Assembly (NCBI GenBank): GCA_022925895.1 | Contig: JAKSYS010000462.1 | Location: 1-50,706 of the forward strand | DNA length: 50,706 bases | Reading direction: 5' to 3' | From: Fragilaria crotonensis | Lineage: Eukaryota; Bacillariophyta; Fragilariophyceae; Fragilariales; Fragilariaceae | In this document: positions 8,405 through 42,630 of the stretch, piece after piece | How positions within the stretch are numbered: the stretch's first letter is position 1 | How the letters are laid out: every line of letters starts with the position of its first letter | Program-made: the position numbers and the translations under genes | The notes under the pieces: model-generated | The model's input: the letters and a program-made list of their open reading frames with translations, nothing else | Database searches by the model: none | What the model was told of the DNA's origin: nothing

Positions 8405-10340
8405 TTACCACCACGGTCGGCCGCGCTTATCGCGAAACGGTTTATTGTTGCACGGGATGATGGACGGCTTGTCTATGTAATGACACTCCATAAGTGCCTC
8501 GACGGAGCAACACCCCTCACTAACATTGACGGGCATGTCACCAACCTTCTTGCCCACGCATTGCGTGCCACATACCAATCTCCCATTTGTTGAAAGAATT
8601 TGCGTTTGTCTTCCTTACTTTCAGTCCAACTCATGTGGAAAATGTAGGGACTAATGGTCTTTGCAATCACCTTTTTCATGTACGCCTTATCTCGATGATA
8701 GTGAAAACCACCGGGAAACGTATCTGTATCTCTGGAGAAGACCTTGACTCGTAAGCCACGATACGACGCGTGTTCATTCAGAAGACTGGTCAAGGACGCT
8801 TGGTGAGAGTGGGACTGTTGAATCAAGTCACCGAGTTTGACGAAACAGTTGAAAAGGTAGCGAGTCCGTTCTACGGCACGAACAAAGTAAAAGCCCGTGT
8901 TGGGGGAGTATGTTGCGTAACGACCAGAACGACCACCGTCATCTTGAAAGTACATGTCGAAATCATCCGACAATTGAAGGAAAAAATCAACTGGATTGCG
9001 ATACCAAACCACATCAGCATCTTGGAACAAGATATTATAGCCGAGCTGAGAAAGCAGGTGCACACAAAACACTTTCGCCATCATCATGCCAGCAAATTTG
9101 GCATCACCATACTTCGCGGCAGCTTTTTCGGACATTCGAGCAAAGATCTGAGGTAAACGAATAGAAAGAATGCGTGAGTGAATTAATGAACACGCGCTCC
9201 CTCATCCAAAATCATATCATCGTCGCAACATACCACACTGTCGTAAAATGTTGCAACGCCCAATGCCTCTGCAATCTTTTGGGTTTCCAGATCCGTTGCG
9301 AATACTAGCACGTTGGACAAATCGAAGCCTCTGGCTTTGGAACTGCAGATGAAATTCATCAGCAATTCAGATTGTCCAAGATTGCACACGAGCACCACAA
9401 TTGTCTTGTCTCGGGCGACTTTCGCCGCAATGGGCTTGAGCTTTGCAAGTGTTGACTTGAGGTTGCTCAGGTACGGGACCAACACTTTTTGATCGTAAGC
9501 GTCAACGTTGAAGGGCTGAGGAATGACTTGCATGTTACCCTTATTGGCGGAGTGAGTTCGTGCGACATTGCGAAGTGGTAACGTTTTGTCGACGCCGGTA
9601 CGAATGTTATCCGGCGGTAATCTCATGTATTTGTGGATGTGATACGATTCCCATTGTCCGACAATCGCCAGACATTGACGAGGTTTATTTGGTTCAGTGA
9701 GGATAATTTTCAGAGTATCACAGTTGACAGTGGCATCTTCCACACTAAGAAGGGGTATTTGACCCTCGCGAGCGGCATCGACTTTGGAACGGTGAGGTAA
9801 AGATTGCTGATGGTGGTACAGGATAAGGGCATCTTCATTCCCGGGAGTTGTAGGGTCGAGGGGAACACCAAGGTCGAATCGCTCCAAAAACCGATCACGA
9901 CTGATGCGTGCGGCTCCAGCAATCAGCTTCTCCATGGGCGCTCCGAACCTCGATCCTGACGTGATGTACTTTGAGTATCCGGTTACTGTGATGCAACCGT
10001 GAGATGGAGTGTCATCCGACGCATTAGCACACAGAATCAGACAACAGAACCGAACACACCTATACAAATGCAGAACGTGCGTACCTGCTGAGAAGAAACT
10101 TGATGTTCCCGTGGTCGTTGTCGCCGTCGTTGTTTTCGCAGTGGAGGTGCGAAAGCCGTCGTTTCTTGGACAGCCCAACTGGGATGAATGACTCATCCCG
10201 AGCGTTAATCCCACGTAAAAAGAGCCTAAACATGAAATAACAAAAAGCAACATGACTTGAACTGGCACACTCTGTTTTCTTAATGGTAGGGGTTGACTAG
10301 CAAAACCATTGGGATAGGACGATGAACGTGGGGCCGCCAT
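8405..10340 (-). CDS. Putative glycosyltransferase (PF03407-like), copy B, with a 1-bp deletion frameshift near the 3' end
   Basis: A tandem paralogue of copy A with the same architecture: exons 10340-10085, 9955-9234 and 9147-8405, and introns of 129 and 86 bp, the same lengths as in A. Signal-anchor helix, Thr-rich stem, FQDADVVWY DxD motif and FHMSW are all kept. Near 8560 the sequence reads GCGTGCC where A has GTGGTTGC, one base shorter. As a result the reading frame leaves the family sequence after GDWYV and ends at 8473 with an unrelated tail. In the neighbouring frame the expected C-terminus (CVGKKVGDMPVNV to GRPWW) is intact down to the TAA at 8405-8407. The break removes about 55 conserved C-terminal residues, including the Cys-rich end, but leaves the DxD core. 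It could be a young pseudogene, a functional truncated form or a sequencing error. Introns and exons are both very similar to A, implying recent duplication. Confidence 0.82.
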
Positions 10341-11147
10341 CTTGATAATCGTCTTGGCGGCAGTTTGATTTCGACTTCATTTTTCTGAGCTGCTTGGGAT
10401 CATCCGACCGTTTATAAACACCTTTTTCGCTTCACAGTCGAAGTCCAGTGTACCAATACCAGCGTAGAGTACTACATATCACATATCACATGACAGATGC
10501 CAGATGCCTGTATGTGTTGTATGCATAGAGTAGTTTGAAAGTACTGGTAGTGTAGGCCATCGAGTTCCGAAAGACCAGTAGTCTACTACTCTAGTAGACC
10601 TACTCGTTGCTAGTAAAGTAGGGAGACGACAACAAACATGGCATTCTACAAAAACTAACTTGAATGATTTTTATCGACCCTACATAGCACTTATGCATCT
10701 CTTATACCTCTGAATCTATGTCTCATGTTTGAGATTGAGCACTGTGTATCGGTGGCTCCAGGGCGCCAGCATGTGATGACAGCGGGCAGCGGGGTACATG
10801 CACAAGTACCCTGTAGTTAGCTTACAACCTTATCTCTGACACTCCCTCTCTTCGTAATTGTACCTGGAACCTGGATTTCCACTGGTAGTTGGATACTAGA
10901 GTAGCTGGTTTATTGCTGGTATGATGCCAGGTACCATGGTAGCTAGGAACACCGAGTCCATAGCAAGTACAGTATTAGAAATACGAGGGTCGATCGCCAA
11001 GCAAATAACATGGTATCGTTCGCGAACTCAATGTGCTGACTTTCTTTTTGCCTACGCCTGATTCCCCGATGATTCTTCGCATCATATGATAGGCACTAGT
11101 GCAAGGCAAAAAGGCCAATCTTGGCCATTCGTTTTGTGAGACTATTG
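10341..11147. other. Intergenic between glycosyltransferase copies B and C
   Basis: No gene found. The stretch 10440-10990 is dense in GTAC, CTAGTAG and CCAGGTACC-like palindromic words. The upstream region of copy B resembles that of copy A only for the first ~50 bp. No promoter element can be named. Confidence 0.45.
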
Positions 11148-15242: not shown

Positions 15243-16514
15243 ATGGAACGGTGAGTTCAAGAGTGCATCGTTCCGTCCTTGCAAGGCGTGCTGATTGCGG
15301 AGTTGCACTTTGTCAAGCATTCAAGTCTCATGTTGGAGACGACATCATCGTGGTCCTGGGATGCGGTTTTGTCGTGGGGTTAATTTATTTTATTCATGTC
15401 TGTATATGTTTTGATTGGTGTCACATTTTAAATAGGCGGGTATTTTTGAATATAAACGACGGTTTCTGTGAAAACCTACAGGCACCTTGGATATGGCGTT
15501 ACCGTTGCCAAAATTTCAGCAACATCGAAGTCAGGGCAACTTGATGTGCTTAGCAACAGCGGGAATGTGATCCATTGACAATGAACGCACTTATCATTTG
15601 TTTTTCTAACACGGCGAACCAACAGTTATCAGAAGATTGAAAAGCCTGGGTCGAATCTCGGTGAGGGGACCTATGGTGTCGTATACAAAGCGCGAGATCG
15701 GCAGACCGATGAAATTGTGGCATTGAAGCGCATCCGACTGGAGGTGGAGGACGAAGGCATTCCATCAACAGCCCTTCGCGAGATCAGCTTGTTGCGGGAA
15801 TTGACTCACGAAAACGTTGTCGAGCTAAAGGATTGTGTTCAATCAGAGGGGAAGCTATACCTGGTCTTTGAGTTCCTTGACAAGGATTTGAAGAAATACA
15901 TGGAGTCTTGCTCTGGTCTTTTGTCGCCACTTCTGGTTAAATCTTACCTTTTTCAGTGTTGCCGAGGACTAGCTTTTTGCCATGCTCGCGGGGTTATGCA
16001 CCGTGATCTTAAGCCTCAGAATCTGCTTGTCTCTAGAGATGGGCGTTTGAAGTTGGCTGATTTCGGCCTTGCCAGGGCCTTTTGTCCACCGATCCGCCCA
16101 CTGACTCACGAAGTCGTGACCTTGTGGTATCGCCCTCCAGAAATTCTTCTTGGATCTCAAACTTACGCCCCTCCTGTTGATGTGTGGGCGATTGGTGCCA
16201 TTTTCGCTGAGATGGTTACGAAACGTCCCCTATTCCCCGGCGATTCCGAAATTGACCAGCTCTACAAGATCTTCCGTCAACTCGGAACCCCAAGTGAAAA
16301 CGTTTGGGCTGGGGTTACCAAGCTTCAAGACTGGAACGCAGCATTTCCAAAGTGGGTCAAGTCTCCGTACGCCAAGACCATAACGGACAATTTGGATAAC
16401 GCGGGTCTCGATTTGCTTGAACGCCTGTTGGCGTACGATCCGAAGGATCGCATCACTGCCAAGGATGCCTTGAACCACCCATACTTTGATGACCTTGACA
16501 AGGAGAATATCTAA
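15243..16514 (+). CDS. CDKA: Cyclin-dependent kinase, CDKA family, PSTALRE type
   Basis: A Ser/Thr kinase of the cell-cycle CDK1/CDKA family. Coding exon 1 is just 8 nt (15243-15250, ATGGAACG) followed by donor GTGAGT. The intron is 15251-15625 (acceptor CCAACAG) and exon 2 is 15626-16514. The join gives MERYQKIEK, the expected N-terminus, and 298 aa. Seen in order: glycine loop GEGTYGVV with the inhibitory Thr-Tyr pair, the VALK lysine, the cyclin-binding helix PSTALRE (variant of PSTAIRE), [18 protein letters not shown]-loop [17 protein letters not shown] (family APE changed to PPE), and [13 protein letters not shown] four-residue insertion ([13 protein letters not shown] instead of EK-x-GEGTYG) precedes the glycine loop. 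A PSTALRE CDKA is known from diatoms alongside a PSTAIRE one, from memory of the diatom literature. All catalytic residues are present, so it should be active when cyclin-bound. Confidence 0.92.
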
Positions 16515-17642
16515 GTTAATCGCATCAGCATCCACACGCCTCGTTAAGTCGATTCGTGGCGAGCATGCGCCCCTTTGAGTGGTTTTAGCGGCCCACTGGT
16601 TTGGAAATCTAGAATATCTATGATGTAACACTCCTCAATATTCTCTCTCCTCTAGAAATGTAGGAAAGAAATTGTGATGGAGCGGATCGTATTCCTCGAA
16701 TCAGTCAATAGAAAAGGCAAGAGATGGACAAAATGCTGCCGGACTTTGGTCAGGGAGACATGTCCCAACTCTGAATCTGATCAATCTTGGCATTGAGACA
16801 AATCACACTCCGGGTAAACTGGACTCGGAAGAGATGACTTCTATTTTGAGATGAAATATTATTGCAATGAACGACATTGGTGAAAAAAATTCCTGTCACA
16901 GGAGCTTTGGCAAGAAAGCGCAGGGAGTTGGACAAACACCGCCTCATTTTTCCTGAACACCTGATGATCCTCCATATTTTTGTTACCATCTTGATAACAT
17001 GACAACATGACAACATCAAAACCCACTAACTTATTCGCGGATGCGTCGGGAGTCAGGACGTCGTATAACGTATTCTTACCTGCAAGTCGGCCAACGTCAA
17101 GAACATTAACAGTCCCGAGTGACCCAGGGGGTCTGACGTCTGACGTGTTGCAAGTTGCAAAAGGATTGAGTCCTATGGGAAATTTTTCTGATCGGTGTCT
17201 GAATATCAATCCTAATTTAAGTGATCAGCCGTCTGAGGCACCATGACTTTGCCAGCTCAGATGCCAGAGATGGTGCACGGTTGTAACACGCATAGGGCCA
17301 GTTCGTTTGATACTCTTCACGCAGATATGCATACAATAAATATGGCAGCCGTTTTGGAAGGTTCGTAGTTTCTGCAGAGTACACGTGTAAGGTCATTACG
17401 ACAGGCCATGTGACCCTTCTGGACAATTCACAGAGGAGCAACTCATGACCAAGGTCCTAAGTACACGGTAGTTGGTATTGTATTGCATGACACACACAAA
17501 GTCAGTCATTCCGTTTCCGGATGTTTCCTACAGAAAACTCCCGTACTCCAGTATAGTTCGAAATTGCATTTCTAGTCTACTATCTCGATTATTGTGACCT
17601 CTACTGGATGATCGGACGGTCTCAGTTTGTAAACATGAAACG
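16515..17642. other. Intergenic; the right part is the duplicated promoter region of the ATPase gene
   Basis: No gene is recognised from 16515 to about 17177. From about 17178 to 17642 the sequence is clearly similar to 30998-31462, upstream of the second ATPase gene; for example, GATCAGCC..CTG.GGCA.CATGACTTTGCCA is shared. The duplicated block therefore includes promoter and 5' UTR. In this copy an out-of-frame ATG at 17608 opens a short upstream ORF; the matching position in the second copy is in frame with the protein. Confidence 0.6.
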
Positions 17643-20600
17643 ATGAATGACCGATTCCTTTCGAAAACTCGACGCACTCCGGTCGTTGTTGTTATTAGGA
17701 AGGACAGCCGATACAACAGACGACTTGTCTTGGGCAACGCTTCATCGATGACTCCTTTCCCTGCTGAAGATTGGTCTCCCCTGGATGTAATCCAAGAATG
17801 CGGTCACGACGAACACCGTATCGATCTTAGCCAAGTTAATTTGTACGGTCGATCAAGAGAAGTGAAAATGCTGCGTAGCTGCTTTCATAGAGCCTGTCGC
17901 GGCAGATCAGAACTTATCATCATCAAGGGACAACCAGGTGCTGGGAAGACAAGACTTGTTGAAGGTGCTTTGCGGCAATACGTTGCGGAACTTGAAGTGA
18001 ATAGAGGCTTCTTTGTGAGAGGAAAGTGCGAACGTTTCCAAAATGAACCATTTGCTGCGATAGTCTCAGCGGTTACTGATCTGGTTGATCTTATTCTAGA
18101 ATCCGAAGAGGTTGAACAAACGACGAACGATTTCAATGAGGCCTTTTCAGACGTGGAAATCAAGGAACTCGTTCAATTGATTCCAAAGCTTGCAGCAATG
18201 GCTCGACAGGTACCAGAAATGAGGATTCACAAGAACCCAACCTGGAGCGACGACTGCTCTCAAAGCGGATATGCACCCTTCATTTTTCTTTTCCGATCGT
18301 TGATAAAGTTTCTCGTGACATCGACACGACCCGTTGTTCTTTTCTTGGACGACATTCACTTTATCGATTCTGATTCGCTGAATCTTTTGAATTCTCTCGT
18401 GACCGACGAATCGTCTAAACATTTACTCCTTGTCTGCTCCACGGGAGACCTCACCGCTCCATTGAATTTTTGTAACGATGCACTACTACGAGTTTCGGAG
18501 CTCATCGTCGGTGATCTGACTTTGCCTCATGTCGCAGAGCTATTTTCCGATTTCTTTCAAGTGGAGGATGCAACTCCGCTGATGGAGTTGGTAATGAGCA
18601 AGACCTCAGCCAACATTCTCCACATCATCCAATTCCTTGAATTGATTCGGTTGCAGGGGTTCCTAAAACATGGGGAAGATGGGTGGATCTATGACTTGAA
18701 TGATATTCAAGAAAACGCGATATCTTTTGGAAGTCTCGACGACCTTTTGGATTACAAGATTCGACGACTTGACGGAGGTGTTATGCCCGTCATGAAGGTC
18801 GCATCCTTTCTGGGACCGCGGTTTCGTTTTGATACGCTGGTACATGTGTGTAGAGCACGGAACTATCAGTCCTGGCATGAAACTGCACGAAGTGTTAACG
18901 AAGCGTTGCAAACTGCCATGCGCCATGGCTATGTGGAACTACGTGAGGGTTTGTATTCGTTCGTCCATGAAAGTTTTCAGCTATGTTGGTACAATATGAT
19001 GAAGGAAGAACGCCCTCCTGCTTCGACGCACTTGCAGATTGGAATGGCGATTCACTCTCAGATGCTGATCGATCAAGACTCCTCGTTGCTCTTTTCTGCG
19101 GCAGACAATGTTTGGCGAGGTCAATCGAACGCTCACAGCCGTGCAACTGCTAAGCAAGCCTTGCGTTTGTTGCACGAAGCGTCCCAGTGCGCAGTTAGTC
19201 GGGGCATGTTCCATCAAGCAAAGTCGTTTGCTATGGCGGCTGTGCGTTTGTTGGAAGAGGATGTGGACCATTGGACGAATCAATACCGCATTTCTGTCGA
19301 TGTGTATTGCAACATGGTCAATGTCGAAGAGATGATTGGCAACTTTGAGAATGCTTACCGTGCAGCTAACGAAATCCTCGCGCACAGTGAGTGCTTCGAT
19401 GACTCCATCAGGGCGCGTCTCTTGCTAATACGATGCTTGGGAAGCGGTGGAAAGTACGAGGAAGCTAAAAGGCACGGTTTCGAAGCGTTGCGCGATCTCG
19501 GTGAACCGATACACCAGTCCAACGTATTGATTCATATCGCTCGCGAAGTTGCTAACATCACGAGAGCTCTGAGGAATAAGACGGACGACGACTTGCTCTC
19601 TGTACCATTGATGAAATGTACCACGAAGATAGCCGCCATGCGGATCTTGAGCTCTCTCGTTTCGGTTACGTACCTTAGTATCAAGTGCAAATCAGATCGG
19701 TTACGTTTCTGCGAGCTGGGTCTTCGAATGATGTCATTGTCACTCAATTATGGGGCTTGCGAAGATTCGTGCGTCGGCCTCGCATGCTATGGGGTCTTGC
19801 TATCTAGCAGGGGTGATCATGACGGTGCTCTCCGCTACGGAAGACTTGCATTGAGGCTGGTCAACAGGTTCGGCGCGAAACACGTGGAACCGTATGTTGT
19901 GTTCATCGCGCATGCGTTTTTACTTCACTACGAACAACCGCTTCTAGAGTGTCGTGGCGCGTTAAGGCTACAAACTTACCCTAAGACACTTGGGTTGGGC
20001 GACCTTGATACAGCATTTCATCAAGCAAGTTTGCTAGTTGTGGCTGCGGTTTTATCCGATGCTACGTTGTCATGCGTCGAGAAAGAAGTTGCACAGTACT
20101 GCAAGCTGATGAAACACTTTCGCAGAGATGCGGCCTTTAAACAATCTGTTTGTTCCTGGCAAAGAACGCAGAATTTGATGGGCCTTGTTGAGGACCCAGT
20201 CGTCCTGACAGGCGCAATAATGAACGAAGAAACAACTGTCTCACAGCTGAAAAGGGATAGTCACGGCACAGCTCTCGCAGCGCTCTACGCATCGAAACTC
20301 GGGCTAGCGCTTTTGTTCGAATCCTGGACTACTGTTGCCACTCTCATCCCGAATGTTGAGAAGAGTATCAGAAGTGTGAAGGGGCACATGTCACAATACA
20401 GCTGTTACTTCTATTTGGCGGCATCAAGTTGCGCTCTGTATCGCGTGACGCGCCATCGGAACCATCGACGATCGGCATCCCGAGCAACGAAGCAGCTGCG
20501 AAAATGGAAAGATGACGGCGTCGCAGTGTGTGCTTCCATGCTGATGTTCATCGAGGCTGAATGGGCTCTCACCGGTGGCTTGGATACGACGTGTATTCTT

Positions 20601-20912
20601 TTCTTGTCGGCTGCAGAACGATTCGCGTCATTGAAATGTTACGTGAATATCCAAGCCATGGCCTACGAACGAATAGGGTCCTACTACCTTTTGAAGGGCG
20701 ACCAGCAAACTTCAACGCAGTTCTATGCGAAAGCTTTGTCGAAATACGAAGATTGGCAGGCGATGGCCAAAACACCAGCTCTACGATTGCGTTTGTCTCT
20801 GAACAACTGTAAGAGGATTTCCAAGAGACCGGATCTCAAGACGGAGGGAAGTACCATCTCATTTTCGTGTGAAGGCGTGACTTTTCAGAGCGTTGAGCCT
20901 TTTCGTTCGTGA
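17643..20912 (+). CDS. AAA/STAND-type ATPase with helical (TPR-like) C-terminus, copy 1
   Basis: A 1,089-aa protein in one exon. After a variable 60 residues comes the family entry motif LYGRSREVKML, then Walker A GQPGAGKTR (96-104) and Walker B VVLFLDD (231-237) with IHFID, matching the AAA_16/STAND fold found in large signalling ATPases of diatoms and bacteria. Residues from about 440 to the end are helical repeats that look like degenerate TPRs (for example FENAYRAANEILAHSE). I see no attached kinase, cyclase or DNA-binding domain, so its output is unknown; it may be a regulatory scaffold. The ATG at 17643 matches the one conserved in copy 2. One extra base near 20873 relative to copy 2 moves the stop and adds about 11 residues. 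Long stretches are nucleotide-identical to copy 2, while others differ at many residues. Confidence 0.88.
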   Translation: MNDRFLSKTRRTPVVVVIRKDSRYNRRLVLGNASSMTPFPAEDWSPLDVIQECGHDEHRIDLSQVNLYGRSREVKMLRSCFHRACRGRSELIIIKGQPGAGKTRLVEGALRQYVAELEVNRGFFVRGKCERFQNEPFAAIVSAVTDLVDLILESEEVEQTTNDFNEAFSDVEIKELVQLIPKLAAMARQVPEMRIHKNPTWSDDCSQSGYAPFIFLFRSLIKFLVTSTRPVVLFLDDIHFIDSDSLNLLNSLVTDESSKHLLLVCSTGDLTAPLNFCNDALLRVSELIVGDLTLPHVAELFSDFFQVEDATPLMELVMSKTSANILHIIQFLELIRLQGFLKHGEDGWIYDLNDIQENAISFGSLDDLLDYKIRRLDGGVMPVMKVASFLGPRFRFDTLVHVCRARNYQSWHETARSVNEALQTAMRHGYVELREGLYSFVHESFQLCWYNMMKEERPPASTHLQIGMAIHSQMLIDQDSSLLFSAADNVWRGQSNAHSRATAKQALRLLHEASQCAVSRGMFHQAKSFAMAAVRLLEEDVDHWTNQYRISVDVYCNMVNVEEMIGNFENAYRAANEILAHSECFDDSIRARLLLIRCLGSGGKYEEAKRHGFEALRDLGEPIHQSNVLIHIAREVANITRALRNKTDDDLLSVPLMKCTTKIAAMRILSSLVSVTYLSIKCKSDRLRFCELGLRMMSLSLNYGACEDSCVGLACYGVLLSSRGDHDGALRYGRLALRLVNRFGAKHVEPYVVFIAHAFLLHYEQPLLECRGALRLQTYPKTLGLGDLDTAFHQASLLVVAAVLSDATLSCVEKEVAQYCKLMKHFRRDAAFKQSVCSWQRTQNLMGLVEDPVVLTGAIMNEETTVSQLKRDSHGTALAALYASKLGLALLFESWTTVATLIPNVEKSIRSVKGHMSQYSCYFYLAASSCALYRVTRHRNHRRSASRATKQLRKWKDDGVAVCASMLMFIEAEWALTGGLDTTCILFLSAAERFASLKCYVNIQAMAYERIGSYYLLKGDQQTSTQFYAKALSKYEDWQAMAKTPALRLRLSLNNCKRISKRPDLKTEGSTISFSCEGVTFQSVEPFRS

Positions 20913-30488: not shown

Positions 30489-31462
30489 TAGCCATGCCAG
30501 GGTTCTGGAACCGTGCCTACCCAATATATGTACAGTAGAATGTAGTATGTGTATGGATATGTTATGGTCAAACTTGAACGTTATCTTATAATTCAGAACT
30601 TCAATTTCCTCCCGTCCGAATGGACACTCCTTGGACCAAGTGAAAATCCAACTCTAACCGAACTGCTAACTTCAGGGTCTCAAAAAGCGTACGGACACCC
30701 AACCCCGTCAATAATCAACGAACAATCGCATTCGCCGGTGCGTCAGGACTCAGGACTCGGGACAGGTTACGTAAAACGTAGCGACACGTTGGCGTACGTC
30801 ACACAAACGTACTGGGTACCCTGGATGTTCTGGAATTCTTGATCACCTGGTAATAAAATCGTGTAGAATATACTGAAACCCGAGTCAGAGTTCCGGAATC
30901 CCCATACCCTGGTGGGTTCCCGAGAGTGACACCGCAGTATTGTTACTTGTGTGCAAAAATTCATCGAATTATGTCTCCACACGTTTATCAAGTCCAAGGA
31001 AATTTTATAGTTGCTGTCTAAATATCAGTCGGAAATGATCAGCCATCTGGGGCATCATGACTTTGCCAACGCAGACGTCGGAGATGACATTCCGTTTTAA
31101 CACGCGTAGGGCCAGCTCCTTTGGTGCTCTGAGAAATACGCCGATCTTAATATCATATTTTATGGTTGGGTTTTCCGAAGGTTCGTGCTATATATATGTG
31201 CAATTGAGGTCATTGCGACGAGCCATGTGACTCTTGTGGACAAACTACTAGCGTGATTCAATCTTGAATGCGTGTCTCAAGCCCCAAGTGCAAGGCAGCC
31301 GGTACAGAATTATCACGTACCACAGCAGCCATTCGGTTTCGGGATGTTTCCTACAGAAAACCCTGGTACTTCAGAATAGTACAAATTCCATAATTAATTT
31401 TTTAAGAGGATTTTAGTGACCTCAACCGGATGATCGGATGGTCTCACGTTCCACATGAAACA
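30489..31462. other. Spacer; right part is the duplicated promoter region of ATPase copy 2
   Basis: 30489-30997 holds nothing recognisable. From about 30998 similarity to 17178-17642 begins and runs into the gene. An ATG at 31430 is in frame with the ATPase here and would add 11 residues, but it is not conserved in the other copy. Confidence 0.5.
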
Positions 31463-34400
31463 ATGAATGACCGCTTCCTTGCCTTTGAAACAGGCCGAAC
31501 ATCGGTCGTTGTTGTTGTTCGGAAGGACAGCAGATACAACAGACGACTTGTCTTGGGCAACGCTTCATCGATGACTCCTTTCCCTACGGTAGATTGTTCT
31601 CCCCTGGATGTAATCGCAGAATGCGGTCACGACGAACACCGTATCGATCTTAGCCAAGTTAAGTTGTACGGTCGATCAAGAGAAGTGAAAATGCTGCGTA
31701 GCGGCTTTCATAGAGCTTGTCACGGCAGATCAGAACTTATCATCATCAAGGGACAACCAGGTGCTGGGAAGACAAGACTTGTTGAAGGTGCTTTGCGGCA
31801 ATACGTTGCGGAACTTGAAGTGAATAGAGGCTTCTTTGTGAGAGGAAAGTGCGAACGTTTCCAAAATGAACCATTTGCTGCGATAGTCTCAGCGGTTACT
31901 GATCTGGTTGATCTTATTCTAGAATCCGAAGAGGTTGAACAAACGACGAACGATTTCAATGAGGCCTTTTCAGACGTGGAAATCAAGGAACTCGTTCAAT
32001 TGATTCCAAAGCTTGCAGCAATGGCTCGACAGGTACCAGAAATGAGGATTCACAAGAACCCAACCTGGAGCGACGACTGCTCTCAAAGCGGATATGCACC
32101 CTTCATTTTTCTTTTCCGATCGTTGATAAAGTTTCTCGTGACATCGACACGACCCGTTGTTCTTTTCTTGGACGACATTCACTTTATCGATTCTGATTCG
32201 CTGAATCTTTTGAATTCTCTCGTGACCGACGAATCGTCTAAACATTTACTCCTTGTCTGCTCCACGGGAGACCTCACCGCTCCTTTAACTTTTTGTAATG
32301 ATGCACTGCTACTGGTTTCGGAGCTCATCGTCGGTGATCTGACTTTGCCTCATGTCGCAGAGCTGTTTTCCGATTTCTTTCAAGTGGAGGATGCAACTCC
32401 GCTGATGGAGTTGGTAATGAGCAAGACCTCAGCCAACATTCTCCACATCATCCAATTCCTTGAATTGATTCGGTTACAAGGGTTCCTCAAACATGGGGAA
32501 GATGGGTGGATCTATGACTTGAATGATATTCAAGAAAACGCGATATCTTTTGGAAGTCTCGACGACCTTTTGGATTACAAGATTCGACGACTTGACGGAG
32601 GTGTTATGCCCGTCATGAAGGTCGCATCCTTCCTGGGACCGCGGTTTCGTTTTGATACGCTGGTACATGTGTGTAGAGCACGAAACTATCAGTCCTGGCA
32701 TGAAACTGCACGAAGTGTTAACGAAGCGTTGCAAACTGCCATGCGTCATGGCTATGTGGAACTACGTGAGGGTTTGTATTCGTTCGTCCATGAAAGTTTT
32801 CAGCTGTGTTGGTACAATATGATGAAAGAAGAACGCCCTCCTGCTTCGACGCACTTGCAGATTGGAATGGCGATTCACTCTCAGATGCTGATCGATCAAG
32901 ACTCCTCGTTGCTCTTTTCTGCGGCAGACAATGTTTGGCGAGGTCAATCGAACGCTCACAGCCGTGCAACTGCTAAGCAAGCCTTGCGTTTGTTGCACGA
33001 AGCGTCCCAGTGCGCAGTTAGTCGGGGCATGTTCCATCAAGCAAAGTCGTTTGCTATGGCGGCTGTGCGTTTGCTGGAAGAGGATGCGGACCATTGGACG
33101 AATCAATACCGCATGTCTGTCGATGTGTATTGCAACATGGTCAATGTCGAAGAGATGATTGGCAACTTTGAGAATGCTTACCATGCAGCTAGCGAAATCC
33201 TTGCCCACAGTGGGTGCTTTGATGACTCAATCAATGCGCGTCTCTTGCTAATACGATGCTTGGGAAGCGGCGGAAAGTACGAGGAAGCTAAAAGGCACGG
33301 TTTCGAAGCGTTGTGTGATCTAGGAGAACCGATACACCAGTCCAATATATTGATACATACCGCTCGCGAACTAGCACATGTCACGAAAGCCTTAAGGAAC
33401 AAGACTGACGAAGAGTTAGTCTCCTCACCGTTGATACAATGCGCCACGAAGGTCGCTGCCATGCGGATCATGAGCTCTCTATTATCGCTTACTTTCCTCA
33501 GTATCAAGAGCACATCAGATCGATTGCGTTTCGCCAATCTGAGTCTTCGAATGATGTCCGTTTCACTCACGTATGGAGTTTGCGAGGAATCGTGCGTCGG
33601 CTTCGCATCCTATGGGGTCTTGCTGTCTAACAGGGGAGATCATGACGGTGCTATCCGCTACGGAAGACTTGCATTGAGGCTGGTCAACAGGTTTGGCGCG
33701 AAACACGTGGAACCGTATGTAGTGTTCATCGCACATGCGTTTTTACTGCACTATGAACAACCGCTCCTGGAGTGTCGAGGCGCATTAAGGCTACAAACTT
33801 ACCCTAAGACACTTGGGTTGGGCGACCTTGATACAGCATTTCATCAAGGATCTTTGCTCGTTGCGGCAGCGGTTTTGTCGGATTCTTCGTTGTCTTCTGT
33901 TGAGAAAGAGATCGCACATTACTGCAAACTGATGAAACACTTTCGCAGAGAGGCGCCCTTCAACCTTTCTGTTTCTTCATGGCAAAGAACGCAGAATTTG
34001 ATGGGCCTCGCTAAGGACCCTATAATCCTGACTGGTGCAGTAATGAAGGAAGAAACAATTGTCTCGCAATTGAAGAGGGATAGTCACGGCACAGCCCTGG
34101 CAGTGCTCTACTTATCGAAAATCGGGCTAGCGCTTTTGTTCGAATCCTGGACTACCGTGGCCACTCTGATCCCGAATGTTGAGAAGAGTATCAGAAGTCT
34201 GAAGGGGCACCTGTCACAATACAGCTGTTACTTCTATCTGGCAGCATCAAGTTGCGCACTGTATCGCGTGACGCACCATCGGAACCATCGACGATCGGCG
34301 TCCCGAGCAACGAAGCAGCTCCGAAAATGGAAAGATGACGGCGTCGCAGTGTGCGCACCCATGCTGACGTTCATCGAGGCTGAATGGGCTCTCACCGGTG

Positions 34401-35335
34401 GCTTGGATACAACGTGTATTCTTTTCTTGTCGGCTGCAGAACGATTCGCGTCATTGAAATGCTACGTGAATATCCAAGCCATGGCCTACGAACGAATAGG
34501 GTCCTACTTCCTTTTGAAGGGCGACCAGCAAACTTCAGCACACTTCTACGCGAAAGCTTTATCGAAATACGAAGATTGGGAGGCAGTGGCCAAAATCCCA
34601 GCGTTGAAACTGCGTTTGTCTCTCAACAGCAGTAAGAATGTCATCAAGAAACCGGATCTCAAGACGGAGGGAAGTAAGATCTCCTTTTCGTGTCAAGCGT
34701 GAGCTTTCGGAGCTTGGAACCTTGCCGTTCTTGATCCGCAATGCAGAGCAACACGAGACTGTGAATCGGGTTCGATGTTAGTAGTGAAAGGGCTATAGGT
34801 CTGCAATTTATGTTTGACAATTCTGTGCAAAAGCTAGAGTGTGACCATTTCGCTCTTTTGCGAGATGACTTAGGTTCGATGAAAATCGACTATCATTTGA
34901 GTCTGTGATGGAAGCGAAAACGAATTGTATGACAGCTTCTACAGGTCGTGACCAGCAATGGTGGCTTTGGTGTGGTGACGTAGATTTATGTGCACCCCGA
35001 AAATGTCACATACTGATGTACTTGTTTGTTCTCTTGTCGCGATCCACTCATGTTGATGATTTGCTGCTTTCGTCGTCCGCCGTGGAGAAAGGCTCCGCAC
35101 TGGCTGGTAACTCAGTTGACGACATCGAAGTGCGATCGATTACCATTTTGGCCGTCATTTCTTCTCGATAGATCTTTGCCAACCCCTCTCGTAGAGTTTG
35201 TGCCGCCTTGGCGAGTGCAAGCTCATCTCCAATTTCATACCATGTATCATCGGCCTCTTTCTTCAAGAATCGTCCATGTTGATCCCTAATCTTCGTGACG
35301 AGATATCTTGCAACATGTGCTTTTCGGGATTTCTT
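30998..35335. repeat. Segmental duplication, second copy (partner 17178-21477)
   Basis: Direct-orientation partner of the first block, containing ATPase copy 2 and the 3' part of the intact DUF6824 gene. Beyond 35335 the DUF6824 gene continues here, while in the first block the sequence switches to copia-like DNA. This block therefore keeps the original right-hand context. Confidence 0.88.
31463..34702 (+). CDS. AAA/STAND-type ATPase with helical (TPR-like) C-terminus, copy 2
   Basis: A paralogue of the gene at 17643. It has 1,079 aa from the ATG at 31463, which aligns with the start of copy 1, or 1,090 aa from the ATG at 31430. Walker A GQPGAGKTR, Walker B VVLFLDD and the LYGRSREVKML entry motif are all kept. 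Residues 85-270 are coded by DNA identical or almost identical to copy 1, synonymous sites included. In contrast, the part around AREVANITRALRNKTDDDLL in copy 1 reads ARELAHVTKALRNKTDEELV here, with many other changes up to YGVLLS. Identity returns at RYGRLALRLVNRFGAKH and falls again after DTAFHQ. The protein ends SFSCQA, shorter than copy 1 because of a one-base difference. Both copies look functional. Role inferred only as a STAND-like signalling ATPase. Confidence 0.88.
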   Translation: MNDRFLAFETGRTSVVVVVRKDSRYNRRLVLGNASSMTPFPTVDCSPLDVIAECGHDEHRIDLSQVKLYGRSREVKMLRSGFHRACHGRSELIIIKGQPGAGKTRLVEGALRQYVAELEVNRGFFVRGKCERFQNEPFAAIVSAVTDLVDLILESEEVEQTTNDFNEAFSDVEIKELVQLIPKLAAMARQVPEMRIHKNPTWSDDCSQSGYAPFIFLFRSLIKFLVTSTRPVVLFLDDIHFIDSDSLNLLNSLVTDESSKHLLLVCSTGDLTAPLTFCNDALLLVSELIVGDLTLPHVAELFSDFFQVEDATPLMELVMSKTSANILHIIQFLELIRLQGFLKHGEDGWIYDLNDIQENAISFGSLDDLLDYKIRRLDGGVMPVMKVASFLGPRFRFDTLVHVCRARNYQSWHETARSVNEALQTAMRHGYVELREGLYSFVHESFQLCWYNMMKEERPPASTHLQIGMAIHSQMLIDQDSSLLFSAADNVWRGQSNAHSRATAKQALRLLHEASQCAVSRGMFHQAKSFAMAAVRLLEEDADHWTNQYRMSVDVYCNMVNVEEMIGNFENAYHAASEILAHSGCFDDSINARLLLIRCLGSGGKYEEAKRHGFEALCDLGEPIHQSNILIHTARELAHVTKALRNKTDEELVSSPLIQCATKVAAMRIMSSLLSLTFLSIKSTSDRLRFANLSLRMMSVSLTYGVCEESCVGFASYGVLLSNRGDHDGAIRYGRLALRLVNRFGAKHVEPYVVFIAHAFLLHYEQPLLECRGALRLQTYPKTLGLGDLDTAFHQGSLLVAAAVLSDSSLSSVEKEIAHYCKLMKHFRREAPFNLSVSSWQRTQNLMGLAKDPIILTGAVMKEETIVSQLKRDSHGTALAVLYLSKIGLALLFESWTTVATLIPNVEKSIRSLKGHLSQYSCYFYLAASSCALYRVTHHRNHRRSASRATKQLRKWKDDGVAVCAPMLTFIEAEWALTGGLDTTCILFLSAAERFASLKCYVNIQAMAYERIGSYFLLKGDQQTSAHFYAKALSKYEDWEAVAKIPALKLRLSLNSSKNVIKKPDLKTEGSKISFSCQA

Positions 35336-37416: not shown

Positions 37417-40400
37417 CTAGATCTTCGCTTTCTTGTGCTCAACGCCAATTGAGTCGCTGCGATCGAACATATCGTCCATGTCATACAGATCATCGTCAAT
37501 GTCATCATCAGCCCCAGCCGCGGCCTCCAGCATCGCCTTTCGCTTCAGAGTCTTGTCTGCTTGCTGAGCATCTTCCTTTTCCGCTCTACTGGAGTGCACG
37601 AGGTCTTTCTTCATGTCCATCCAATCGTTGACATACTGATCACGGAATGATTTGGTCTCGTGATGTTGATAGTAATCATGCATGTACTCGTGATTCAGTG
37701 CCTCTACGGCGGTAATGCGCTTGGTTGGGTCCAGGTGCAACATTTCTGCCATCAGATCAATCGCCTTTTTGTGCTTTGCAAAGTCTTCCTCCCTCATCAT
37801 TCTTTCAAATGCCCTTTCAACGCCCCTCTTGTACTTTTTTGCCGCCTTGACGGCAAATGGAAACTTGAATGCATCGGGGTAATTGTCCTTGCCAGGCGAG
37901 CCTACGATCTTGAACATGGACAACAATAGTGCTGATCGTTCCTTTCCAAGAAAGATGGGCTTGCCCAACAGCAAATGGGCCATCATACTACCGATCGCCC
38001 AAATGTCGGTTTCCTTCGTGTGCTTTAACGAACCCAACAGGAGCTCGGGCGCGGAATATGGGTTGACATCGTCTGCTTCATCATTCTTGTCCTTTCGCGA
38101 TTTAGTGCTTCTCAAGGGGTTCACTTGCTTGGTGCGCTCGCTAAGGGGCAGCACCGTGGCTCGATAGAATCCAGCCACTTTCGCCACTCCGCTGTGATCT
38201 ATCAAGATCTGATCCGTTTGGGCTGAGCGTAGAATCACATGGTTGGTATGACAGTGCACAAGTGCAGACAATAGGTCATGAAACCACGCAGAGAAAAGGA
38301 AAGGGCTGATTGTCCCTCCTTCCAACTCGTCGCGACGTTTCTTGCTAGATCGCTGTACAACGCGGGTGAGAAGGAAAGGGATGGGATCAAACACTAAATG
38401 AGGTCCCGACGACCTATCCCTCCTTTTCTTTTCCTTTCGAGCACTCCGCTCGTTCTCTTCACTTGAGCGAAAGAGCGAGAAGATGTCATCCACCTTTGTC
38501 TCTCCGAATTCTTCAGTATCTTTCGCCTCTCCATTGTCCTCGGCCACTTGTGGGAGTGAAACTGCAACGGGTAGCGTTAAGTTTGGATGCCCAGTAGGAG
38601 AAGGAATGAGAGAGTGCAACTGAGTGAGGAGCTGGAGTTCTTGCAGTGCTGCAGGTGAGAATCCTGTTGGAGGACTGTTGTTTTTATCCCTCTTCCCCTG
38701 CTCTTTGTTGTCGATCTTTTCAGGAGGCCAACGCTGCATAGAAACTGCGACAAACCGATCCTCATAATGTTGGCCGTCCTTGGATGATCGACAAAAGGTT
38801 GATAGCTTGGGAAACTTGTTGGCTAGTTCCTCTTCACCTACCAGGGCCATGCCTAAATTGGATAATTGAATCAGCTGACTGAAACGCTCCCTGTCCTTCG
38901 CCACACAAGTACGAACGCAGTGCATGTTGTACATACAACCTGATGGGCTCGGAGCATACATGGGTGGAATCCACCATCGAAGCCCAGCTTTTCGCATGTG
39001 GCTTTCTTGGATTCGCCCAGCCTCGCATGCCTTGCCTCCGACCTTCCGTCCAAAGGTTGGTTCGCCGGTTACTATTTTCGATTGGATTGTGCATTCCCAA
39101 CCGTCCGAAGTACAGATATCGTCCATTGTCATGAAACCGCTTCGAGACTTGGAATTTAGCTGGAAACTCGAATCGTCGGGCGGGGAGTCGACTGGTGATG
39201 GAAGAGTTCCACCGACCTGCGAACATGCAGCACTTAGGACGCGTTCGGCAATGGCCAGAGCTCTCCAACTTCCTTCAATGATAAGGTCTTCGTGTCCTGG
39301 GTGTTCACTTTCAGCTACAAATATTCGACATTTACTCTCGGCGCAGATTGCATCGATAATCGGCACAATACCCTCGCTGACCACACTTTCCGGGAGTTCC
39401 TTAAAAGCGTACCGGCGGTTGTCGCGTTGTCCAATCATTTGGTAGCGTACGCTACTTTGTCCAGCATCAATCAGCTTGTCGCGAGGTAATGCCGCAAAGT
39501 TTCTCATATTCCTCACGCAGACACTTTTGACGTTCACGAGATTGTTCAGGAATGACTCGATACCACCATTGAACATCGCCCTGGTCGATTTGCGGGAGTT
39601 TCCATTCGCTTCGACTGACTCGGCAATAATTTCGGCTGCTAGAGACACTTTGAGAGGCATTAATGACAGCGGCACAAAAAGTGGTTCAAGGTCGATTGCC
39701 AGAAACCCCATGATAGCGCCAAAAATATACTCTTCCCCGAACTTTAGCCACAGATCAGCCCCAGCTGCCAAGACGGGTCCGCTCAGGACCAGCTCGAGCG
39801 CATTTCGGGCCATTGGTCCTGATATCCGAGTGCTCTCCACGGCTGCCTCTGCCACCCATTCAACACCCTTCCAAAAGATATCGTAGTCTAGCATCTTCAG
39901 GACTTCGGATTCCGCTTGAATCACCTTCTTCTCGAAATTCACTGCGCCTTGATCTTCCCGATTGAATTTGCTTCCAGGAAAGAAGACAGGATACGCCGAT
40001 TCAAGCAAGACGTCAACCTTTTTCCATTTCATGACCTTCTGAGCTTTGTTTGCTAAGAAGATGCAGGCCATCAAAATGTCTCGGATTTTCAGTCCAGGAC
40101 AAGCATCATCATTTTCGCCGACAAGCTTGAGGAATCGATACATGATTACCGCAGCATGGCCCCCCACGCTGGCAATAAGGCCGGCCTTCTTGACTATCTC
40201 GGCGATTTCCAGGCAGGCATTGGCAACATTGCGTGGTTCAAACCGGTTTGATTTACCGGTCAACGTTCTGGGAGATTTGGGAGTTGACGGCTCTTCCTTG
40301 GCTGGCGCTCTGGGGATCGCAGCTAACGACCAATCACGTCCAAAGAGCCAACTTTGGACCCGTGTGCAATGATCTCGATAGAATTCAATCTGCAACAAAA

Positions 40401-42630
40401 TAAGTTCCTCCGCCAAAATCGCAATGTCTGACGGACTCAACGTTTGCTCGGAATCCCAATCCCCTACGACTAGATCTTCCGTGCCCCCATCAACTCGCAA
40501 GTGATCGCCTGTCATCGAGTCAATAGTGACTGTTGCACCCGTCACTTCCTTTACTGAAGTAAAGAACGTGCCGGCATCCTTCATCATAAACTTCTGATAC
40601 TGACGATCAGCCCCTAGGTGAAGGTATCGAATTCCGCGCAGATGGTCGTTGGCTCGTCGTTCGACTAGTTTCCAGAGCTTCGGAACTTCGCCAGGATCAC
40701 ATCCGAAGTACATCTTGCGAGGGGCATTAGGATCGAACTCAGCGATGATGCGATTGGAAGCATCAATACGACCCATGTCATTTTCTGACTGTACCCATAC
40801 AGTACAGTGTTGAGTACTTTCAAACGAAGCAAAGAAGGAAGACTGCCTCAAGTCTTCATTTGCTTCTTGATTGAGTCGATTTTTATCGGAGATGTTTACG
40901 AGCATTTGAAAGGCTTCACTACTGAGTTCTCCTCCAAAGAAGCCAAAATCCTTGTAAAAGCCAGAAGGGGCCTTTGGAGCATTTGTCTCTTCACATGATT
41001 TTAGAATCACGGACCAGAGCAAATCTTTTGCCGACTTGAGATCTGATACAAGTGTGGCGTCGAGCTGGATCTTTCCAAACTTCTTGCTTTTGCTTTCGGA
41101 GGGAGCAAAGGTAATGTTGACACTCTTGCAGCGATCGCGAACAGAGCCCAATTTTCTGTAGACACAATCCACCGTGCACCTTGGTATGATGACTTCTTCA
41201 TGGAGTGCCGCAGGGTCGATCGAAGGATCACACTGTGGATTCTGAAGGATTTTCTGGGAGAACTCTTGTGTCTGTTGTTGATGTCGTAGCTTGGCAATGT
41301 TCTTCTCGATGAAGCCATGTGCCTTTTCTACATTGACACCCGAAACAACGATTTTCCATTCCAAATTTTCATTCGAGTCAGCATGTGGGATGTCTTCCAC
41401 CTTGAGCTCACTCTTGACGATCCGCTCAACCTCAACTGAACAACCAAATCGAATCCTGACGTTGTCGATAAATCCCTTTCCATTGAGTTCATTCTTGATC
41501 GTGGTAGAAACGAAAAAGAAGTTTTGAAAGTGACGCATTTCCTCTTGTTGCTCCTCTTTGGTGATCCCCAATAAACTCTTCTCGACGATGTCTTTTTCTT
41601 GTTTTTGTTTCTTCCCGATGATAAAAATGGACGATGCCTCTTCATCCAAAAGCTGCCAATCTTCTTTGGCCAAGTCTTCCCATTCTTCTTCTAGGCTATT
41701 GCGATACATGACCAAGTGCTTTCCATTTTCATCATCATACTTGCAAATATCCGCGGAAAAGTATTCTCCATATTCCTGCGAGTAGATCCTAATGGTGCGA
41801 TTGATGATTTCTGCCCCCGCCTTGGCAGCAATTGGTTTGAGCCAATGCGCTTTCAATTGATGTTCCAATTCTTCTTCTTCCATACTCTTTGGCACTTCCA
41901 ATGTTCCTCTACAATTGGGCGATCCACAGTGACATTTGGTGGCAGCCCGCCCTCTCTTACGATCCCATTTATAATCAAAGGACAGTTCCTCCCCCTGTTT
42001 GATGTCGCGCGTCGCGAAAATACCAGCCCTAAGAACACCTCGTACATTCCATCGTTCGACGCGACAATTGGGATCGCAGGAATGATTAATGTAGCGGGCC
42101 TTCCCCCCGTAGGCACGGGCGTCAATGAAAATGTCACTGTCGAGTGCCATAATGTAGAGCATGCGCTCCGTTTTGTAGCGAGAGAACAATCGTTCGAGGT
42201 ATGCTTTGCGAATGGCTTTACCAACATATTCTAGAATGAAATCTCCCTTTTTTAGATCTTCCATGGTTTGCAGGCCCTTCCCTTTGGGACCCGCATCAAT
42301 GACTTGAACGGATCTCCATTGTTTGTTGGTAATGCGCTGATTTCCACATTGGGGCAAACATTCATGACATTCTTCTTGACAGGCAAAGAGGACACATGAT
42401 TCATCGGTGCATATTTGGTCGCAGTCATTTTCGCCAAAACATCCACACGCATCCGGTAGATCTCCACGAGGACGATGAGCCAATTCGTTCGACGCAAACT
42501 TGTCCGATGCATCAGCCCAAATCATTTCATCAATTAGTATAACATCGTCATCTGGAGTACCATTAACAGTACTAGTACTAGCACTAGTCACGTGCATGGG
42601 TGATGGACTCGAGATATCATCTGTCGACAT
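37417..42630 (-). CDS. SET-domain histone methyltransferase fused to a cyclin domain and a CDK-like pseudokinase (1,737 aa)
   Basis: One uninterrupted ORF. Residues 60-105 form a Cys-rich AWS zinc module. Residues 106-225 form a SET domain with GKGLQ, ARYINHSCDPNC (180-189) and ELSFDYKWD (215-223). Residues 233-240 are post-SET CHCGSPNC. This order is that of SETD2/Set2 and ASH1 H3K36 methyltransferases. Residues 370-750 have several KH-like alpha/beta segments (weak). Residues 798-1005 are a cyclin box of cyclin K/L/T type (KIRDILMACIFLANKAQKV, then ESEVLKMLDYDIFW). Residues 1083-1137 are another KH-like segment. Residues 1255-1660 are a CDK-like kinase fold that has lost catalysis: VAVS for VAxK, ILRSAQTDQIL for the HRDLKPxN loop, and AGF for DFG, while YSAPELLLGS and TDIWAIGSMMAHLL remain. 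The tail is acidic with KHKKAKI-type basic end. The methyltransferase looks active; the kinase part probably recruits or scaffolds. Confidence 0.9.
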   Translation of the reverse strand: MSTDDISSPSPMHVTSASTSTVNGTPDDDVILIDEMIWADASDKFASNELAHRPRGDLPDACGCFGENDCDQICTDESCVLFACQEECHECLPQCGNQRITNKQWRSVQVIDAGPKGKGLQTMEDLKKGDFILEYVGKAIRKAYLERLFSRYKTERMLYIMALDSDIFIDARAYGGKARYINHSCDPNCRVERWNVRGVLRAGIFATRDIKQGEELSFDYKWDRKRGRAATKCHCGSPNCRGTLEVPKSMEEEELEHQLKAHWLKPIAAKAGAEIINRTIRIYSQEYGEYFSADICKYDDENGKHLVMYRNSLEEEWEDLAKEDWQLLDEEASSIFIIGKKQKQEKDIVEKSLLGITKEEQQEEMRHFQNFFFVSTTIKNELNGKGFIDNVRIRFGCSVEVERIVKSELKVEDIPHADSNENLEWKIVVSGVNVEKAHGFIEKNIAKLRHQQQTQEFSQKILQNPQCDPSIDPAALHEEVIIPRCTVDCVYRKLGSVRDRCKSVNITFAPSESKSKKFGKIQLDATLVSDLKSAKDLLWSVILKSCEETNAPKAPSGFYKDFGFFGGELSSEAFQMLVNISDKNRLNQEANEDLRQSSFFASFESTQHCTVWVQSENDMGRIDASNRIIAEFDPNAPRKMYFGCDPGEVPKLWKLVERRANDHLRGIRYLHLGADRQYQKFMMKDAGTFFTSVKEVTGATVTIDSMTGDHLRVDGGTEDLVVGDWDSEQTLSPSDIAILAEELILLQIEFYRDHCTRVQSWLFGRDWSLAAIPRAPAKEEPSTPKSPRTLTGKSNRFEPRNVANACLEIAEIVKKAGLIASVGGHAAVIMYRFLKLVGENDDACPGLKIRDILMACIFLANKAQKVMKWKKVDVLLESAYPVFFPGSKFNREDQGAVNFEKKVIQAESEVLKMLDYDIFWKGVEWVAEAAVESTRISGPMARNALELVLSGPVLAAGADLWLKFGEEYIFGAIMGFLAIDLEPLFVPLSLMPLKVSLAAEIIAESVEANGNSRKSTRAMFNGGIESFLNNLVNVKSVCVRNMRNFAALPRDKLIDAGQSSVRYQMIGQRDNRRYAFKELPESVVSEGIVPIIDAICAESKCRIFVAESEHPGHEDLIIEGSWRALAIAERVLSAACSQVGGTLPSPVDSPPDDSSFQLNSKSRSGFMTMDDICTSDGWECTIQSKIVTGEPTFGRKVGGKACEAGRIQESHMRKAGLRWWIPPMYAPSPSGCMYNMHCVRTCVAKDRERFSQLIQLSNLGMALVGEEELANKFPKLSTFCRSSKDGQHYEDRFVAVSMQRWPPEKIDNKEQGKRDKNNSPPTGFSPAALQELQLLTQLHSLIPSPTGHPNLTLPVAVSLPQVAEDNGEAKDTEEFGETKVDDIFSLFRSSEENERSARKEKKRRDRSSGPHLVFDPIPFLLTRVVQRSSKKRRDELEGGTISPFLFSAWFHDLLSALVHCHTNHVILRSAQTDQILIDHSGVAKVAGFYRATVLPLSERTKQVNPLRSTKSRKDKNDEADDVNPYSAPELLLGSLKHTKETDIWAIGSMMAHLLLGKPIFLGKERSALLLSMFKIVGSPGKDNYPDAFKFPFAVKAAKKYKRGVERAFERMMREEDFAKHKKAIDLMAEMLHLDPTKRITAVEALNHEYMHDYYQHHETKSFRDQYVNDWMDMKKDLVHSSRAEKEDAQQADKTLKRKAMLEAAAGADDDIDDDLYDMDDMFDRSDSIGVEHKKAKI

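Follow-up and report, generated by a model that had tools for sequence, protein, structure and literature searches.

A diatom reading frame that very probably joins an H3K36-class SET domain, a diverged cyclin box and a CDK-like pseudokinase in one chain

Introduction

Set2 and SETD2 reach the elongating polymerase when their SRI domain binds a CTD that has been phosphorylated by a CDK/cyclin pair. A long open reading frame in the window (the whole 50,706-nucleotide stretch of Fragilaria crotonensis DNA analysed here) raises the question of whether a methyltransferase of this class can hold a cyclin and a CDK-like kinase within its own chain and, if so, what they would do there. The initial annotation read the frame as such a fusion and proposed that it is a self-contained elongation factor. 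The question bears on how H3K36 methylation is coupled to transcription in diatoms and other stramenopiles: in the parts of PMC10421102 consulted, H3K36me3 of P. tricornutum increases past the start of active genes and tracks transcription, and SRI was not seen here. We conclude with high confidence that SET domain, cyclin box and CDK-like pseudokinase share one chain, and we put it at an even chance that the protein is a diatom methyltransferase in the SETD2 role that uses its built-in dead CDK/cyclin module for recruitment. If this is true, such a methyltransferase would be a direct answer to the coupling question, and a kinase-cyclin pair would have been turned into a structural part.

Results

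Integrity of the reading frame

The minus strand of 37417-42630 reads from ATG to stop without interruption for 1,737 codons, the length that had been reported, without a strand, in the initial annotation; the same reading of the plus strand meets many stops. At the base composition of the window, a frame would stay open for this length with a probability of about 10^-41. When all six frames are compared by a codon score that was trained on 13 other open frames in the window, this frame comes top in 30 of the 34 overlapping segments, each about 100 codons long (the four misses begin at codons 351, 401, 451 and 1401); the score falls to near zero in the 900 bases flanking the frame on both sides. 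The coding signal runs along most of the frame and is weak at about 451-550, 1151-1250 and 1401-1500. There is an in-frame stop two codons 5' of the ATG, and the genome, 62.1 Mb in 881 contigs, yielded one full-length copy of the gene. Twelve frame-keeping GT..AG intron candidates of 60-198 bases occur in the gene; half of them fall within 1224-1295, close to where the coding signal is weak, and judged from the DNA one or more small frame-keeping introns may be present.

Patterns made from the whole protein found no relatives in a collection of viral contigs. Searching with an alignment of two SET rows brought up 51 viral loci (25-49% identity) and one locus in a bacterial bin, and none of these 52 matched residues 250-1737 of the fusion protein at E<=0.01.

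Table 1. Features of the fusion gene, with residues of the protein and positions in the window
Feature	Residues	Positions	Strand	Basis
Whole ORF, 1,737 codons plus stop, single exon as read		37417..42630	-	ORF reading
AWS-SET-postSET, H3K36 class by sequence	60-245	41896..42453	-	Pfam, phmmer alignments, motifs
Agenet/Tudor-like segment (weak)	~265-335	41626..41838	-	Pfam Agenet, PDB match
Diverged cyclin box, transcription type by profile	787-921	39868..40272	-	Profile E 5.3e-6; Cyclin_N E 8.5e-4
KH-like domain without GXXG (weak)	~1073-1138	39217..39414	-	Model, Foldseek, Pfam
CDK-like pseudokinase	~1290-1655	37666..38763	-	Pkinase 1437-1650; N-lobe before 1437 by eye
Degenerate catalytic loop ILRSAQTDQ, HRD to LRS	1466-1474	38209..38235	-	HMMER alignments
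Degenerate magnesium loop VAGFY, DFG to GFY	1485-1489	38164..38178	-	HMMER alignments

The SET domain

Pfam recognises the SET domain with an E value of 8.6e-23, and phmmer against the PDB aligns residues 59-243 to ASH1L (E 1.3e-35) and residues 65-243 to SETD2 (E 3.6e-35), with NSD2 and NSD3 behind. NHSCDPNC occupies residues 182-189 and the catalytic tyrosine lies within SFDY (217-220). Inspection of the alignments by eye shows that the AWS cysteines, NHSC-PNC, the tyrosine of FDY and the post-SET CxC-C are all retained. By its sequence the domain is an H3K36-class methyltransferase with its zinc and catalytic residues in place, and the earlier assignment of an AWS-SET-postSET unit of H3K36 type to residues 60-245 stands. 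A tree of seven SET rows leaves SETD2, ASH1L and NSD2 unseparated, with no supported branch and a long branch for the window row.

The one other stretch of the genome that scores above 100 bits against the fusion protein is a second SET on contig C388, which reaches 112.7 bits and is 40% identical over 53-259. Some 520 bases upstream of that SET frame, on the same strand, is a frame with PHD fingers of NSD type (PHD_NSD, E 2.6e-12), and we infer that the two frames form one gene. If they do, the place of NSD is filled by that gene, which would make the gene of the window the better candidate for Set2/SETD2. By sequence, the fusion protein probably fills the Set2/SETD2 role in this diatom. Pfam finds no SRI in it at E<=1, a threshold that a diverged SRI could escape; a genome-wide search for SRI was likewise empty, as was its control, and the Pfam model of the CTD heptad gave no match with a control that was silent as well.

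Possible reader segments

For residues ~265-335 the best Pfam match is Agenet (E 0.0094, under the cut-off) and the best PDB match is 7de9 (E 0.15), an entry named 'Transcriptional regulator' that we take to be the Tudor of PDS5C. Agenet and Tudor are related. With the two libraries in agreement, a Tudor/Agenet-like reader after the SET domain is likely, if weakly marked in the sequence.

Structure models of residues 785-1200 and 250-780, made from single-sequence input, are poor overall (mean pLDDT 40.0 and 35.5). The model of 785-1200 does contain one usable block: residues 1073-1138 are predicted as strand-helix-strand-strand-helix, and within them the ten-residue pLDDT means reach 56-72 over 1075-1124. 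Foldseek matches this model best to one of the KH domains of FUBP1 (E 5.6e-3, probability 1.00), and KH domains make up 22 of the best 50 rows; a KH domain also heads the rows of the 250-780 model (E 0.10), and neither model has a match at E<=0.001. In VIA-align the KH rows score Z 6.1-7.4, level with the unrelated two-layer folds of PII-like and microcompartment shell proteins. Pfam KH_1 matches the segment at E 0.088, under the cut-off, and the GXXG loop, which is the KH motif, is absent from its sequence. A KH-like domain is likely in this position, after the cyclin box and before the pseudokinase, if weakly marked.

Three further segments that look KH-like by eye (362-455, 470-552 and 655-782) were rejected. 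Pfam KH has no match for any of them, and with leave-one-out KH profiles none of four segments, 1060-1150 included, beats its own 500 shuffles (places 370, 269, 93 and 92). Structure prediction, which had been proposed as a check on the fusion, yielded the KH-like block and no cyclin; neither a cyclin nor a docking geometry appears in the models or in the match rows shown, at a pLDDT too low to tell.

The cyclin box

Of the three domain claims that of the cyclin box was the weakest, and different searches disagree on it. Pfam Cyclin_N matches at E 0.0061 in the whole protein and at 8.5e-4 in a fragment, both below the curated cut-off, and phmmer finds no cyclin in the PDB at E<=1. Of the proposed HMM searches, those for SET and Pkinase are strong and the one for Cyclin_N is not. 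A transcription-type profile was built from cyclins L1, L2, K, CCL1 and H together with two cyclins of the same genome, a cyclin L (L034) and a cyclin H-like frame (L035), and was run against 1,491 targets, made up of the protein and its reverse, 1,000 shuffled versions of residues 780-1050 and 489 frames from 36 loci of the genome. It matches residues 787-921 with an E value of 5.3e-6 at rank 8; the seven targets above it are cyclins of the same genome, two of which belong to the profile, and the best of the 1,000 shuffles reaches E 5.7. A profile of L034, L035 and a third frame, L024, gives E 6.1e-4, against 0.29 for the best of 200 shuffles. The other three of the five profiles either missed the box or reached no better than E 0.49: that value comes from pooling the 23 cyclin frames examined in one profile, the protein is absent from the best 12 rows (E to 3.3) of a profile of cyclin L only, and a profile of the 20 frames that remain without L034, L035 and L024 does not pick it up at E<=10.

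The match stops at position 124 of 205 of the profile, that is, with the first cyclin fold. In the region of the second fold helices are predicted, at pLDDT below 50. We conclude from these profiles that residues 787-921 are a diverged cyclin box, closer to the transcription type. The box had been placed at 798-1005; its presence is upheld, its end at 1005 has no sequence support, and the match is weaker than had been implied.

The CDK-like pseudokinase

Pfam Pkinase covers residues 1437-1650 (E 2.6e-21), which bears out a CDK-like domain, put earlier at 1255-1660 and placed by us at about 1290-1655. The HMMER alignments show that the HRD site reads LRS (1467-1469), with serine for aspartate, and that the DFG site reads GFY (1487-1489); MAFFT has a gap at the latter, also without an aspartate. 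The N-lobe is harder to interpret and seems, by sequence, to be interrupted by inserts. By eye, VAVS (1294-1297) stands where VAxK is expected, MAFFT pairs the ATP lysine with another lysine past an insert, and a profile of intact CDKs leaves the strand of the ATP lysine unaligned and scores the PSTAIRE-like helix at -3.7 bits. Two features are retained, the APE motif (as SAPE) and the CDK/MAPK insert. We conclude from the alignments that the C-terminal domain is a dead CDK-like kinase without the HRD and DFG aspartates. The loss of both aspartates had been claimed correctly; the third loss of the earlier claim, that of the ATP lysine, is possible.

The rankings do not show a descent from a CTD kinase. 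In the PDB the CDC2 homologue 1v0o (presumably PfPK5), CDK1 and Fus3 lead, with CDK12/13 behind them and CDK2 below CDK12/13, and the best match within the genome itself is a PSTAIRE CDK.

Intact kinases and cyclins of the same genome

CDKs with intact HRD and DFG are encoded at 15585-16511 of the window and at five other loci of the genome (L004, L025, L027, L030 and L028); from their helix-C motifs we take L025 to be CDK7-like, L027 CDK11-like and L028 CDK9/12-like. The genome also encodes a cyclin L (E 5.4e-29) and a cyclin H-like/CCL1 protein (E 1.2e-15). With separate and intact CDKs and cyclins of transcription type available, phosphorylation of the CTD need not be carried out by the fusion chain, and the description of the protein as self-contained is not supported.

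Discussion

Comparison with known systems

The architecture had been thought undescribed. This is correct only in part, as a protein that combines a histone-lysine methyltransferase at its N terminus with an inactive CDK-like kinase was reported in 2010, PITG_14137 of Phytophthora infestans, with orthologues in two further species, P. ramorum and P. sojae, and in no others (Judelson and Ah-Fong, PMC3019232, in the parts consulted). Like the fusion protein, PITG_14137 has its methyltransferase at the N terminus, followed by the inactive kinase, in one stramenopile chain; the two are likened by description alone, and the parts of PMC3019232 consulted name no cyclin, Tudor or KH for PITG_14137. 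The same parts describe fusions of CDK and cyclin (PITG_21617 and others) in oomycetes, ciliates and Theileria that were not found in two diatoms. These resemble the fusion protein in combining a possibly inactive CDK-like kinase with a cyclin in one chain, but there the cyclin lies C-terminal to the kinase, the aspartate of subdomain VIb is asparagine and, in that text, no SET is mentioned, whereas here the cyclin precedes the kinase and the aspartate has become serine. The order SET, cyclin, pseudokinase was not recognised in any description among the literature matches listed. The cyclin part and the occurrence in a diatom go beyond the published Phytophthora pair, as far as the consulted parts of PMC3019232 describe it.

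Set2/SETD2 and the fusion protein share AWS-SET-postSET with its motifs and an H3K36-class SET domain; the fusion protein differs in having no recognisable SRI and, in its place, a cyclin box and a pseudokinase. With the CDK/cyclin pairs of transcription (CDK12/cyclin K, CDK9/cyclin T and CDK11/cyclin L) it has in common a CDK-like fold and a cyclin box nearer the transcription type, but its kinase is dead, is present in cis and is fused to a methyltransferase. A survey of diatom SETD2 (PMC10421102, in the parts consulted) describes AWS-SET-PS and, for some diatoms, additional conserved motifs numbered IV-VII. Neither 'kinase' nor 'cyclin' occurs in its main text as consulted; motifs IV-VII could be parts of the same architecture. 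PsKMT3 is given as an H3K36 methyltransferase of P. sojae in the consulted parts of PMC12825968 and PMC12781887, and those of a paper on brown-algal chromatin (PMC13076208) contain no occurrence of cyclin or SETD2.

A model for recruitment and its alternatives

We suggest that a dead CDK/cyclin-like module in cis would replace SRI in recruitment. The cyclin box and the pseudokinase may pack together, or may bind an elongation CDK/cyclin or the polymerase complex; the docked module would then deliver the SET domain to transcribed nucleosomes, with no phosphotransfer within the fusion chain, and the Tudor-like and KH-like parts could contribute further contacts. A docking role for cyclin and pseudokinase, taken by itself, we hold to be plausible at somewhat less than even confidence. 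The wider proposal is more tentative: that H3K36 methyltransferases of this type occur across the stramenopiles and arose before oomycetes and diatoms diverged, that a dead CDK/cyclin module within the chain has taken the place of the SRI link to polymerase II and reads the elongation machinery, and that the Tudor-like and KH-like parts would provide chromatin and nucleic-acid contacts. We regard this as rather doubtful. Were it shared with Phytophthora, a central chromatin pathway would have been rewired long ago and specifically in this lineage. The finding itself extends the oomycete fusion of SET and dead kinase (PMC3019232, in the parts consulted) to a diatom and adds to it a cyclin box and, possibly, two reader parts.

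The main alternative is that the cyclin box acts in trans, binding a separate active transcription CDK and so providing the methyltransferase with a CTD kinase; the pseudokinase would then only shape or cap the cyclin. The intact frames that we take by motif to be CDK9/12-like (L028) offer a partner, and the similarity of the box to cyclins of L, K and H type speaks for such a role, but the first cyclin fold alone is recognisable and the dead CDK, present in cis, is closer at hand as a partner; we give this reading a lesser chance than recruitment by the built-in module, yet a substantial one. That some kinases without the canonical residues are active, that the APE motif and the CDK-type insert are retained and that the ATP lysine is perhaps not lost would suit an unorthodox active kinase in which other residues substitute for the lost aspartates. 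The absence of the aspartates of both HRD and DFG speaks against it, and we consider activity most improbable.

The strong divergence of both cyclin and kinase and the missing GXXG of the KH-like part would agree with the C-terminal half being a decaying remnant, without function, that is retained since the SET domain is needed. We judge this unlikely: some 1,490 codons stay open past SET with a coding signal through most of them, and a comparable fusion is retained in three Phytophthora species (PMC3019232, in the parts consulted). An assembly join, or a wrong frame that links neighbouring genes, would draw on the gene being known from DNA alone and from a single genome, on the low coding signal at ~1151-1250 and on the six intron candidates at 1224-1295. 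The minute chance of an open frame of this length weighs against it and, as PMC3019232 describes in the parts consulted, the pairing of SET with an inactive CDK-like kinase is known from three Phytophthora species, which argues against a join; we give this explanation very little credence.

Other features of the window and the genome

Silicon transporters of the family searched mark diatoms. The genome gives 19 matches to it, 18 of them above the cut-off (best E 4e-193), while one of 14 control genomes matched, below the cut-off; there are also 61 matches to chlorophyll a/b-binding proteins, and by both families the genome is that of a diatom. On contig C97 (G000:C97:29749-33762, plus strand) three silicon-transporter domains lie in a single open frame of 1,456 aa, and on C771 two lie in a frame of 1,008 aa; by their open frames, both are fused silicon transporters.

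The kinase at 15585-16511 of the window (plus strand, with some 21 kb separating it from the fusion gene) is an intact CDKA-like protein with a PSTALRE-type helix and a Pkinase match at E 2.8e-71. Elsewhere, a frame at 2-1720 of locus L008 (G000:C108:466500-469000, plus strand) has an F-box-like start (E 1e-5), Cyclin_N (E 1.9e-19) and Cyclin_C (E 8.3e-4). Its stretch YFDAWAKPENIFM resembles a degenerate kinase by eye, where Pfam has no kinase; by sequence, it is possibly another cyclin joined to a dead kinase.

Equal or near-equal family scores mark four pairs of contigs (C200/C219, C256/C560, C49/C658 and C77/C86), which by these scores may be duplicated stretches or uncollapsed haplotypes; the fusion gene showed a single copy. 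Within the window, the plus-strand frames at 17598-20909 and 31406-34699, each of about 1,100 aa, carry AAA_16 over the same region and are probably paralogues, judging from that match; no frame of at least 140 aa lies between them. On the minus strand, 3360-5329 and 8476-10376 each hold a pair of neighbouring frames, one with Nucleotid_trans at near-equal scores and one without a family, an arrangement that looks like a tandem duplication.
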